From Algimonas porphyrae (lineage in GTDB: Bacteria > Pseudomonadota > Alphaproteobacteria > Caulobacterales > Maricaulaceae): 64,000 nt of DNA. The position numbers were made by a program, and so were the translations under genes. Location: the NCBI RefSeq assembly GCF_041429795.1, contig NZ_CP163424.1:310001-374000 (forward strand), written 5' to 3'. The notes beneath the pieces are model-generated. The model made no database searches, had not been told where the DNA came from, and worked only from the letters and a program-made list of their open reading frames with translations. Each line of letters starts with the position of its first letter. Positions within the stretch are counted from its first letter, which is position 1. Positions 20,008 to 53,040 of this stretch are shown here, piece by piece.

Positions 20008-20207
20008 CCTACCGAACTGTCGAAGGCGATGTGCTGGACCGGATCGTGCATGATCATTACGGCCAAACGGTTGGTCGGGTTGAAGCTGTGCTTGATGCCA
20101 ATCCGGTGCTGCGCGATCAGCCGCCCATTCTGCCCGCTGGTCTCATCATCAGCCTGCCATCCTTCACGCCCGTCGTCGCGGATTCGCGGGTGAGGCTCTG
20201 GTCATGA
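20004..20207 (+). CDS. Phage tail protein X (LysM-like)
   Basis: A 67-residue protein beginning TYRTVEGDVLDRIVHDHYGQTVGRVEAVLDANPVL, a LysM-like motif, and ending LPAGLIISLPSF as in P2 X. It likely binds peptidoglycan or helps tail assembly at the baseplate. It sits between U and D with 4-base overlaps on both sides, the standard order. Confidence 0.92.
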   Translation: MTYRTVEGDVLDRIVHDHYGQTVGRVEAVLDANPVLRDQPPILPAGLIISLPSFTPVVADSRVRLWS

Positions 20208-21208
20208 AGCCCGTCTATCAGATCAGCGCCAATGGACGTGACATCACAGACAAGATCGGGGATCACCTGATGCGTCTGACGGTGGTGGATGAGGCCGGAA
20301 TAACGTCCGATCGCATCACTCTTAAACTCTCTAACCGCGATCATGCGCTCGAGCATCCGCCAAAGGGCATGACGCTGGCTGTGCGCATGGGATATGACGT
20401 GCCGCAATACGCCATGGGGCTCTACGTCGTCGACACGATCGAGAGCACGGGCAATCCCCATACGCTGACCATCGGGGCCAAGGCGGCCGACATGACAGGT
20501 GAGATGAAGGCCCCAAAGACGCGCAGCTGGCCGCTGCAGGATTTTGCGAGTATCGTCGGCACTATTGCGGCCGAATATGGGCTGGAGCCCGCCGTCTCGG
20601 CCGCGCTGGGCGCGATCGTTCCCGTCCAGATCCCCTATGCCCAGATCGAGCAGGACGCGGAAAGCGACCTGCAGTTTCTGACGCGATTGGCCGAGCAATA
20701 TGATGCAGTGGCAAAGCCGAGCGGCGGGAGGCTGATTTTCGTGCCACGAGGTCGACTGGTGTCGAGAACGGGTAAGGACGCTCACAAAGTGCTGATCGAC
20801 CAAGGCAGCGTCTCCAGCTGGTCGGCGCGCGCACCGGACCGCAGCAAGTTTGCCGGTGTCTCGGCGCGCTGGATCAATTCGGCCACGGAGACGAGTGAAC
20901 GGGTCCGGTTCGGCCCGGACGGCCCGACTTACACGATGAACACACCGTTCAGCAGTGAGGCGGAAGCGCTGAAAGCCGCGCAATCCAAGCATGCGCAGCT
21001 GGCGCGGCAGACGGCGACCCTGTCAATCGAGATGCCGGGCAACCCTGAAGTCGAAGCCGAAGCTGTTGTCGTCTTCACGACAAAGGACCCTCTCGCGCAT
21101 GGTGAATGGATCGTCAGGCGGGTTGAGCATGAATTATCGGGCGGCGCGAATGGTCGCTTCTCAACACGAATGGAGCTTGAACCTCCAACGGAAGAACTGC
21201 AGCCGTGA
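20204..21208 (+). CDS. Late control/baseplate hub protein D
   Basis: A 334-residue P2 D-like protein, the hub that connects tube and spike. Features are FSISANGRDITDKIGDHLMRLTVVDEAG-type N-terminus (YQISANGRDITDKIG), DRITLKLSNRDHAL, GLYVVDTIESTGNPHTLTIGAKAADMTGEMKAPKTRSW, IEQDAESDLQFLTRLAEQYDAVAKPSGG and EAEAVVVFTTKDPLAHGEWIVRRVEHELSG. It closes the collinear tail operon. Everything after it is accessory or rearranged. Confidence 0.93.
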   Translation: MKPVYQISANGRDITDKIGDHLMRLTVVDEAGITSDRITLKLSNRDHALEHPPKGMTLAVRMGYDVPQYAMGLYVVDTIESTGNPHTLTIGAKAADMTGEMKAPKTRSWPLQDFASIVGTIAAEYGLEPAVSAALGAIVPVQIPYAQIEQDAESDLQFLTRLAEQYDAVAKPSGGRLIFVPRGRLVSRTGKDAHKVLIDQGSVSSWSARAPDRSKFAGVSARWINSATETSERVRFGPDGPTYTMNTPFSSEAEALKAAQSKHAQLARQTATLSIEMPGNPEVEAEAVVVFTTKDPLAHGEWIVRRVEHELSGGANGRFSTRMELEPPTEELQP

Positions 21209-21222
21209 GCGAAACAGTTGAC

Positions 21223-21621
21223 CTATTTCCAGACGTCGATCGTCGGTGCTGGCTGTTTGACGTTGTCCTTAGGTCTCTCACATGCAGCTTTAGCAGCTCG
21301 ACAAGCAGCATAACCATCAGGGCTTTTATCGATCAGTTTATTGTAATTATGAAAGCACGCCTTCTCCCCATAGGCCTCGACGGCGCGTGCCAGACAGGCT
21401 TTGCGCGTGGCGGCTTGGCGCATCCCCTCCAGCCGCGCCCGGCTCGTTCTCAGCGTCTTGTGCGTGCTGCACAGATCCTGACTCGTCAGTGCGCGGTGCT
21501 CTTCACAGCTATACGACACGATCTCTGTCTTCGCGTCTCCACTTTGCGCCAGAGCAGGGACCGTCAAAAGGGCGGTCGCTGCGATCGCCGTCATCATCAT
21601 TTTCATGGTCATCGTCCTCAT
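21223..21621 (-). CDS. Secreted Cys-rich small protein of unknown function (prophage cargo)
   Basis: A 132-residue protein encoded against the tail operon. The ATG at 21621 is preceded by GAGGAG with a 4-base spacer. The N-terminus (about residues 1-26, ending VPALAQ) is a clear Sec signal peptide with an AxA-type cleavage site. The mature part has six cysteines (SCEE, LCST, KACL, ACFHN, AACRA, AACER) and many Lys/Arg, which suggests a disulphide-bonded periplasmic or exported protein. No family is recognised. Its opposite orientation and isolated start mark it as a moron or late insertion in the phage. Confidence 0.65.
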   Translation of the reverse strand: MRTMTMKMMMTAIAATALLTVPALAQSGDAKTEIVSYSCEEHRALTSQDLCSTHKTLRTSRARLEGMRQAATRKACLARAVEAYGEKACFHNYNKLIDKSPDGYAACRAAKAACERPKDNVKQPAPTIDVWK

Positions 21622-21675
21622 TGGGCTCCTCGGGACATCAAAGGCCATGACAGCGCTTCCGTCAATGCGGGGGCT

Positions 21676-21716
21676 GGGACACGCCAATGTCCCGAGCCGG
21701 GCAGAACACACTGCCC
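21676..21716. repeat. Two tandem 6-6-6 hairpins between cargo gene and methylase fragment
   Basis: GGGACA-N6-TGTCCC (21676-21693) is followed five bases later by GGGCAG-N6-CTGCCC (21699-21716). Both are perfect six-base arms around a six-base loop and similar in sequence. No T-run lies on either side, so they are not normal terminators. They lie between the secreted-protein gene and the reversed N-terminal methylase half, close to where that half stops resembling its family. Confidence 0.6.
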
Positions 21717-21719
21717 ACG

Positions 21720-21950
21720 TCAGCGCACGGCCGTGCGCATCCGATCCCGCAGCACTTCGATAAATTGAGGATAATGCCGCTGCAGGATCCGGAAAAGGGT
21801 GGCAACTTCGCCGTTCGCGTCATTAATGATTTCAGCTTTGGGACGGCTGCGACGCCGCAGAAACACGCCGCCCATACCCACAAAGGCCTCGGCGTAGAGA
21901 TTATGAGGCGTCTCGGCAATGAGCGAACAGATGGACTTTGAACGGTTCAT
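21720..21950 (-). pseudogene. DNA adenine methylase, N-terminal half, inverted
   Basis: The reverse-strand frame reads SLIAETPHNLYAEAFVGMGGV (about 21926 downward), then FLRR..RPKAEIINDANGEVATLFRILQRHYPQFIEVL. This is motif I (FVGMGG, AdoMet binding) and the IND motif of D12/Dam-type N6-adenine methylases. It ends at a stop after RMRTAVR, without the target-recognition domain, and its first residues before SLIAET come from DNA shared with the facing fragment. The C-terminal half lies on the opposite strand next to it, so the gene was broken by a rearrangement that inverted this part. It cannot make an active enzyme alone. Confidence 0.75.
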
Positions 21951-22227
21951 CCGGACCTATGACCGCGCGGGCGTGCTCTTCTATCTGGACCCGCCTTATA
22001 TGGGCTCGGAGGACGATTATGATGCGCCTTTCCAGCGCGAGGACTTCCAGCGTCTGGCCGACTGTTTACGAGCCCTGAAAGGTCGGTTCATTCTCTCTAT
22101 CAATGACACGCAAGATGTCCGCGACATCTTCGCCTTCTGCGATCTGCAGCCGGTCGAACTCTCTTACCAAATCAGTGCGTCCGGTCCGACGAAGGCCCGC
22201 GAGCTCATTCTGACGGGCGGTGGATGA
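21919..22227 (+). pseudogene. DNA adenine methylase, C-terminal half
   Basis: The forward frame gives MDFERFIRTYDRAGVLFYLDPPYMG, followed by FQREDFQRLADCLRALKGRFILSINDTQDVRDIF and a beta-rich end. DPPY is the catalytic motif IV of N6-adenine methylases, and the rest matches the C-terminal part of Dam-like enzymes of Mu-like prophages. The N-terminal AdoMet motif is missing in this orientation but present on the other strand at 21720-21926. About 70 residues around the target-recognition domain are not found. It is coupled to the next gene by ATGA, so translation through it may still matter. Confidence 0.78.
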
Positions 22228-22556
22228 CCGCAGAGGGTTTCCATAAAGAAGCTGAGCCACTTCAGGTGATCGGGGCCATCCGGGACAGTTTTCAGGATGC
22301 GGCGTTCGTCTACAAGAACGGCTCCTGTTTCGAGCTCTATCGTATCCTACGCACCATATTTCCTGAGGCTCGGCCGTGGACGAATTTCGATCATGTCTGG
22401 GTGGAGATCGCCGGGAAGCTCTATGACATCGATGGGCTGCGGTCAGCCGGAACCGAGGGGTTGAGCCCCATGTGGGGCGATACAGCTCTGATGGAGCGCG
22501 CGCACGGATGGAAGTGGCGCTCTGTCTGGCGCGTCGATCAGGCGATGGAATGTTGA
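22224..22556 (+). CDS. Unknown phage-type protein
   Basis: A 110-residue soluble protein that overlaps the methylase fragment by 4 bases. The core reads FVYKNGSCFELYRILRTIFPEARPW and FDHVWVEIAGKLYDIDG. The NGSCFELY...DHVW.....YDIDG arrangement recalls small phage proteins with a Cys followed by a His/Asp pair, reminiscent of a papain-like or transglutaminase-like triad; that resemblance is mine and not verified. No signal peptide or membrane segment is seen. The next gene begins inside its last codons. Confidence 0.6.
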   Translation: MTAEGFHKEAEPLQVIGAIRDSFQDAAFVYKNGSCFELYRILRTIFPEARPWTNFDHVWVEIAGKLYDIDGLRSAGTEGLSPMWGDTALMERAHGWKWRSVWRVDQAMEC

Positions 22557-22955: not shown

Positions 22956-23345
22956 ATGAAATTCCATCCCTTCCGATCTGCTGGAGCCGCCCTTCTGGCA
23001 CTCGCATTTACGTTCCTCTCCCTGCTCATGTCGGCCCCTTTCGCCAGCGCATCAGCGCCAGACTTCATCAGTGATGCTCCGCATGCCGCCGCTCTTCATC
23101 AGATCGATCTCCAGCTGGAATGCGTCGTCGTTCAAGGGGAAGGCCCGACATTCCTGACAATTTCTGCTAGTCCTGATGTGCTGGCGCAGGACGTGTCCGG
23201 GCCAGCTGCGCATACTGTCCGTTTCGACGTCGCACTCGAGCGACAACTGAACGGCCATACAGAGCTCAAGTACAGTCTCGTACCTGCGGCGAACACGCTT
23301 ACATCCCCCTTCATCGCTCAACCTCTTACTCAGTCTATCGACTGA
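22956..23345 (+). CDS. Secreted small protein of unknown function, last gene of the prophage
   Basis: A 129-residue protein with a signal peptide (MKFHPFRSAGAALLALAFTF... ending about SAPFASASA, residue 34). The mature part is beta-rich and has one Cys (LECVVV) and no transmembrane segment. No family is recognised. ATG at 22956 follows CGGAGA by five bases. It stands alone behind the copy-B promoter element and before the hairpin/terminator at 23366, so it is probably transcribed as a single gene. It might alter the host envelope (lysogenic conversion), which is inference from export and place. Confidence 0.65.
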   Translation: MKFHPFRSAGAALLALAFTFLSLLMSAPFASASAPDFISDAPHAAALHQIDLQLECVVVQGEGPTFLTISASPDVLAQDVSGPAAHTVRFDVALERQLNGHTELKYSLVPAANTLTSPFIAQPLTQSID

Positions 23346-23520: not shown

Positions 23521-23613
23521 GTTGGCTACAGCAATCTTGCGCCCTTGCCGAATTTAGCGGTTTCCTGCGCGGACTTCGCGCCATAAGTCTGCGTCCATGA
23601 AAAGGAGCGTTTC

Positions 23614-52039: not shown

Positions 52040-53040
52040 CCGCCCATCAGCCCCATGCGTTGCAGCAAGGCCTGAAGGTGGTCTAAGTCATTGTATTTTA
52101 ATCTTATTTCCCCTCTCTTTCCCGACTGACGAATGTCGGCGGGGAAGCCGGTTTCGTCTTGGATCCGTTGTTCCAGCGCGATAATGTCGGCAGGTTTCTC
52201 ACGCGTTTTCCGGGCGGGGAGTTTCGGACTCTTATCCCCCTGCGCCCAGCGTTCGGCGTCCCGGACAGTCAATGCCTTCTCGACGATGGCTTCGGCCAGC
52301 GCGTCCGGATCATCGGCGGCCAGCAGGGCGCGCGCATGACCCGCCGTAATTGCGCCTGTCATCAGCAGATCACGTCCGCGCGGTGTCAATCCGGTCAAAC
52401 GGACCGTATTGGCGACATGAACCCGGCTTTTTCCGATTGTTGTCGCGATTTCCGCTTGGGTGCGGCCAAATTCGGTGATTAGCCTTTCATAGGCGAGTGC
52501 TTCTTCGAGCGGATTCAGATCGGCGCGCTGGACGTTTTCGATCACGCCGATTTCCAGAACATCGCGATCGGAGAGGTCGCGAACCATGACGGGTATCGAT
52601 GTCAACCCGGCCCTGAGGGCCGCCTGCCAGCGCCGTTCGCCCGCTACGATCTGGAACTGTCCGTCATCGATCCCGCGAACGAGAATGGGCTGCAGAACAC
52701 CCTTCTGCTGGATCGAGGCAATCAGATCGTCAAGCTTGTCGCGGGCAAAGACTTTTCGCGGCTGATCCGGATTTCTCTGCAGACGAGAAATGGCGACATG
52801 CAGAATATTAGGCTGTTCCAGCGGCGCGTCGCCCTTCCGTGTATCGACCAGGGTCTGAACAAGCTTGGCCTCCTCAGGTGTCCGGGCCAGAGGCGGCGCG
52901 GAATCTGGGCTAGACGCGGATTTCGTTTCCAGCGGCGCGTCGTCTTCTGCGACCGGAACAGCGGCTTCGTTCAACCCGCTATCGCTCATTAGCGCCGACA
53001 GGCCACGTCCGAGACCTCTGTCTTTTTTGCGTCCAGCCAT
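52036..53040 (-). CDS. parB: Chromosome partitioning protein ParB
   Basis: The 334-residue protein loads on parS and organises the origin region. The N-terminus (KKDRGLGRGLSALMSD) is typical of chromosomal ParB. NPDQPRKVF, GERRWQAALRAG (CTP-binding box) and the HTH region (NPLEEALAYERLITEFGRTQAEIATTIGKSRVHVANTVRL) are clear. The C-terminal dimer domain ends RGEIRLKYNDLDHLQALLQRMGL. It is transcribed with parA, and three parS sites lie between 53981 and 55096. Confidence 0.97.
   Translation of the reverse strand: MAGRKKDRGLGRGLSALMSDSGLNEAAVPVAEDDAPLETKSASSPDSAPPLARTPEEAKLVQTLVDTRKGDAPLEQPNILHVAISRLQRNPDQPRKVFARDKLDDLIASIQQKGVLQPILVRGIDDGQFQIVAGERRWQAALRAGLTSIPVMVRDLSDRDVLEIGVIENVQRADLNPLEEALAYERLITEFGRTQAEIATTIGKSRVHVANTVRLTGLTPRGRDLLMTGAITAGHARALLAADDPDALAEAIVEKALTVRDAERWAQGDKSPKLPARKTREKPADIIALEQRIQDETGFPADIRQSGKRGEIRLKYNDLDHLQALLQRMGLMGG

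Follow-up and report, generated by a model that had tools for sequence, protein, structure and literature searches.

Phage N6-adenine methyltransferases of the D12 class (PF02086, PHROG 56 and the Dam subfamily TIGR00571) share an AdoMet-binding motif, an IND motif and a catalytic DPPY motif, and a functional enzyme of this class is one continuous frame with its target-recognition region between the motifs. Invertible phase-variable loci, such as the G segment of Mu and the hsdS inversions, hold a segment that is opposed to its partner; such cassettes have inverted repeats at their ends and a cognate recombinase nearby. In Pseudomonas Mu-like phages, accessory genes lie in regions of plasticity (PMC4378225). 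The locus described here lies in a 64,000-nucleotide stretch of the Algimonas porphyrae genome (NZ_CP163424.1, positions 310,001 to 374,000; hereafter the window). It carries the D12-class motifs FVGMGG, IND and DPPY, but on opposite strands, and it lacks the middle and the extreme N terminus of the enzyme. A one-off non-homologous rearrangement that killed the methylase, combining inversion of the N-terminal part, loss of codons and arrival of a cargo gene, is a reasonably probable explanation, and the broken methylase resembles a commonplace dead gene and not a switch that can flip back. No published report of such a split phage methylase was apparent in the literature searched.

The locus belongs to a Mu-like transposable prophage of 36.9 kb (genome 296624-333530), whose right part fills window positions 1-23530 on the plus strand. 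The prophage has a 5-bp target duplication (GCAAT), and the best of its three candidate end pairs has 10 of 12 bases in common; GGTGTCC motifs lie near both ends in an uncontrolled listing that covers the end regions only. It encodes a repressor, a Mu-type transposase, a transposition ATPase, a Mu portal protein and Mu F proteins, together with a protein that we take to be Ner-like. With its transposase, portal and head genes, related ends and target duplication, the element has the hallmarks of Mu-like transposable phages, and the broken methylase gene is its only notable departure from them. Its right end at 23530 just precedes what is presumably the host kdsA gene. An MT-A70 adenine methylase gene at genome 305225-305833 (L147:15225-15833), which matches the whole profile and is apparently intact, may make the broken D12 gene dispensable.

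A first-pass annotation of the window had described two halves of a single adenine methylase lying head to head on opposite strands, and had made this depend on the reverse-strand frame aligning to methylases. Profile matches confirm that both frames belong to one methylase family and that they lie head to head. The inverted N-terminal, AdoMet-binding part occupies 21720-21950 on the minus strand, where homology runs from about 21947 to about 21747 and the frame stays open to a stop at 21720. This 76-aa frame matches positions 11-74 of the 253 in Pfam MethyltransfD12 (E 1.9e-5, 24.9 bits against a cut-off of 22; 21.4 bits, just below that cut-off, in the whole-genome search) and positions 78-139 of the 647 in PHROG 56, a DNA methyltransferase family (E 1e-13). 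The C-terminal catalytic part, a 102-aa frame at 21919-22227 in native orientation on the plus strand, shows homology from 21925 onwards and matches MethyltransfD12 positions 163-247 (E 2.9e-6, 27.6 bits) and PHROG 56 positions 223-321 (E 2.5e-25). Against TIGR00571 the N-terminal and C-terminal halves score 21.6 and 31.8 bits, respectively (cut-off 114.85). The AdoMet-binding motif FxGxGG (here FVGMGG), IND and DPPY are all present across the two pieces. Besides the two halves, the 3.17-Mb single-contig genome holds no place matching PF02086 at E 0.001 or better, and the stretch 21190-22240 occurs once in it. The PHROG 1996 profile (150 positions) matches the C-terminal methylase part only.

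Both halves are free of frameshifts and internal stops, and each forms an open frame with a possible start codon. Compared with 102 distinct intact methylase genes, the N-terminal half deviates at 3 of the 27 columns with 90% or higher conservation, one of them inside the overlap between the halves and two beyond the end of homology, so that all three fall at its ends. The C-terminal half deviates at 4 of 29 such columns, one of which precedes its homology start. Three or more deviant columns are seen in the N-terminal part of 8 of the 102 intact genes and in the C-terminal part of 10, and both pieces are therefore still well preserved. Because neither frameshifts nor stops have accumulated, and because the N-terminal half keeps every 90%-conserved residue except at its ends, decay would seem to have barely begun, unless the remnants are under some constraint; this counts against the dead-gene reading.

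What has been lost is the middle of the gene. Intact genes have 74-78 residues between the two parts (median 77, n = 102), and about 77 central codons are missing from the window methylase; they cover the target-recognition region, whose absence the first-pass annotation had noted. Among the matches listed, the middle pieces of the 102 intact genes found nothing in the prophage better than E 0.01; in the window plus the preceding 20 kb the best match (E 0.001, one of 102 queries) falls beyond the prophage, at window 52662-52790, and a single middle piece, that of L105, gave at best E 0.44 against the whole genome. The N-terminal GGK stretch is also gone: homology of the inverted half begins after it, and the N-terminal pieces of the 102 intact genes matched nothing in the window plus the preceding 20 kb better than E 0.02, among the matches listed. 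The locus thus lacks the unbroken frame in which a target-recognition region separates the motifs, and since the central and GGK codons are missing, neither orientation encodes a whole methylase. Neither remnant would be expected to make an active enzyme.

Related loci show the native order of the gene. Both parts are present in 192 of 226 fetched loci, on the same strand in all 192 and opposed in none; 19 of the remaining loci hold the C-terminal part only, 1 the N-terminal part only and 14 neither. The set comprises all loci fetched at that stage, with eight from the genome of the window itself left out; it was drawn from genome searches and, for the most part, from best-80 lists of viral contigs, it covers some contigs more than once, and the distinct intact methylase genes number 171. 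A recognisable gpU, gpX or gpD accompanies both parts in 22 loci, and in 21 of these the tail genes precede the methylase on its own strand. In the window, the tail baseplate hub gene gpD (20204-21208, plus strand; PF05954, PHROG 52), which by synteny is the upstream neighbour of the methylase in related phages, precedes the locus, and the stop of the C-terminal part overlaps the start of a YunG-like phage gene downstream (22224-22556, plus strand; PF24591, PHROG 4814). Three loci, L157, L158 and L161, have a gpD that is 40-41% identical to the window gpD, followed after 111, 148 and 39 bases, respectively, by the start of an intact methylase frame. Given this order, it is the N-terminal part that is reversed, whereas the C-terminal part has kept its native site and orientation. 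Because every one of the 192 loci holding both parts has them on one strand, the arrangement requires either an inversion or the import of an inverted piece. A plus-strand GTG at 21205 is attractive as the old methylase start in that it overlaps the gpD stop, but the intact genes in L157, L158 and L161 start past gpD with a gap, and the stretch from this GTG also overlaps the end of the cargo gene.

Loss of the methylase gene is a recurrent event, since only the C-terminal part is kept in L026 (10562-10837), L032 (5835-6170), L151 (7844-8239) and L130 (1390-1779). L026 is a related prophage from the same bacterial family, and its DPPY motif reads DSFY by eye. In another related prophage, L028, gpD and the YunG-like gene were found, and no methylase piece.

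The two halves had been placed about 10 bases apart. This spacing does not hold, as there is no gap and the homologies overlap by about 23 bases (21925-21947), a stretch whose minus strand resembles the N-terminal part and whose plus strand resembles the C-terminal part. Read on the plus strand, the overlap keeps a glutamate present in 102 of 102 intact genes. On the minus strand it reads NRSKSICS, with a profile score of 9.5 at the low end of true N-terminal parts (mean 16.8, minimum 8.5), a value reached by 0.115% of 20,000 random prophage octapeptides and never by the antisense of the same site in the 102 intact genes; a leucine found in 102 of 102 intact genes is here an arginine. Our guess is that the halves were joined at a short inverted similarity. 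An old inverted repeat between the starts of the N-terminal and C-terminal parts was also considered as the cause of the overlap; it finds no support in the relatives, where the two starts share on average 8.1 complementary bases of 24 and at most 12.

Beside the inverted half lies the cargo gene (21223-21621, minus strand), which encodes a probably secreted 132-aa protein with six cysteines and a signal peptide recognised by eye. It had been proposed to share the orientation of the inverted half, and both are indeed on the minus strand. The frame is a real gene, having a relative with 30% identity in which all six cysteines align. This one convincing relative (L148:6118-6531, from a Robiginitomaculum metagenome-assembled genome) belongs to another Mu-like prophage, where it lies between a tRNA-like sequence identified by eye and an S24-type repressor gene with a Ner-like gene. 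This setting in a second Mu-like prophage, next to its repressor gene, indicates that the cargo is probably a phage-carried accessory gene. Only weak matches were found in Pfam and PHROGs (best E 0.02) and none in NCBIfam and PADLOC up to E 0.1. Searches of viral contigs and plasmids returned no relatives, those of genome contigs only the Robiginitomaculum one, and 385 genomes of the same class two weak partial matches (E 6.4e-4 and 6.8e-4). Among the loci up to L152, the family is confined to L019 and L148, two records of a single place. With two aligned rows as input, fold prediction reached a mean pLDDT of 65, and Foldseek matched the model to nothing informative in the PDB (best E 2.7).

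The cargo gene resembles the morons of Mu-like phages in being a single extra gene that opposes the tail genes, in its somewhat lower G+C content (0.566 against 0.603) and in its absence at the matching site in relatives, albeit distant ones (gpD about 40% identical): the 39-148 bases between gpD and methylase in L157, L158 and L161 leave no room for it. Unlike morons, it sits in the remains of a gene and not cleanly between two genes. As to the promoter and terminator that morons have of their own, no promoter-like site was found within 21100-22300 by sigma-70 consensus, including the spacer between the cargo gene and the inverted half (21622-21719, minus strand), and one terminator-like site was seen on the minus strand at 21187-21171, where 0.9 are expected by chance. 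A perfect 10-base inverted repeat (21629-21638 and 21687-21696, arms 48 bases apart) lies just upstream of the cargo gene and may be due to chance.

Under the rearrangement that we favour, an intact D12-class gene would once have followed gpD on the plus strand. A non-homologous event would have reversed the front part of this gene and removed its first codons together with about 77 central ones, leaving the catalytic back part unmoved. The gene for the small, cysteine-containing and probably secreted protein would have been left on the minus strand in the vacated space. We infer that the inverted half derives from the same methylase gene as the C-terminal half and that the inversion was linked to the deletion and to the arrival of the cargo.

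Alternatively, the minus-strand N-terminal part and the cargo may have come as one piece from the methylase region of another phage, with illegitimate recombination replacing the front of the resident gene, so that the halves would represent two different methylases. This import is possible though rather doubtful. The closest relatives of the two halves do differ, reaching 74% identity for the N-terminal part (L084, L039) and 60% for the C-terminal part (L179, L160), and their top-ten lists share one locus (L039). The ranks of half-to-relative distances also agree poorly: the correlation is -0.03 over 24 genome-derived relatives, but 4 of 24 intact control genes are as low, and it is -0.245, below all 171 controls, in a larger but biased set of relatives mostly picked for closeness to one half. 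The cargo relative in another Mu-like prophage is in keeping with a family that travels with phages, but no locus was found with the N-terminal part and the cargo together, and the halves are complementary, without a duplicated protein stretch.

A misjoin near 21930 or 21230 is an improbable source of the arrangement. Searches of 137, 299 and 385 genomes brought up no second genome carrying this prophage, which leaves room for an assembly artefact, but the genome is a single contig, and with 21190-22240 being unique there is no long repeat to mislead an assembler. A misjoined intact gene would also leave its middle elsewhere in the genome, where neither the PF02086 profile nor the L105 middle piece found it; a misjoin would not explain this loss.

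The first-pass annotation had raised a reversible inversion acting as a phase switch of the methylase, to be sought through inverted repeats at the segment ends and nearby invertases. The opposed halves, their open frames and the adjoining cargo gene on the strand of the inverted half invite this reading, and they recall the Mu G segment and hsdS, but no complete methylase results in whichever orientation the segment takes, since the target-recognition and GGK codons are missing from both. Comparing the segment ends for inverted repeats gives a top score of 5.5, a level matched by 88% of 500 random pairs, and the inverted pairs listed at the segment are short or imperfect only; the best direct match, of 8 bases, is reached by 15% of 500 random pairs. 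No serine recombinase (PF00239) was detected in the genome by a search that was positive in 10 of 14 control genomes, and of six places with a tyrosine recombinase (PF00589) the nearest, with its end at 162.5 kb, is separated from the prophage by about 134 kb. With codons missing, repeats at chance level and no recombinase nearby, a methylase phase switch by site-specific inversion was rejected as very improbable. A recombinase acting at unrecognisably diverged sites, flipping the segment to switch the cargo gene instead of the methylase, is more improbable still; in the lysogen, cargo expression would then be off or on according to whether the gene runs against or along the phage late genes, a new kind of phage switch against which the evidence stands. 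A working split enzyme, with both halves expressed and acting together, would suit the two open frames with their possible start codons but can be set aside as scarcely credible, given the missing target-recognition region and GGK stretch and the lack of a sigma-70-like promoter site in 21100-22300.

As an example, the locus is clear: a transposable phage has lost a modification gene at a site now occupied by an accessory gene, and gene halves that face opposite ways should not automatically be read as a switch. The cargo family, with two cases of a small, probably secreted protein with six cysteines near either end of a Mu-like prophage, provides a modest lead. Another small gene, at window 22956-23345, without a match in NCBIfam or PADLOC or a relative among the loci searched, lies near the right end of the prophage and encodes a protein with a signal peptide recognised by eye.
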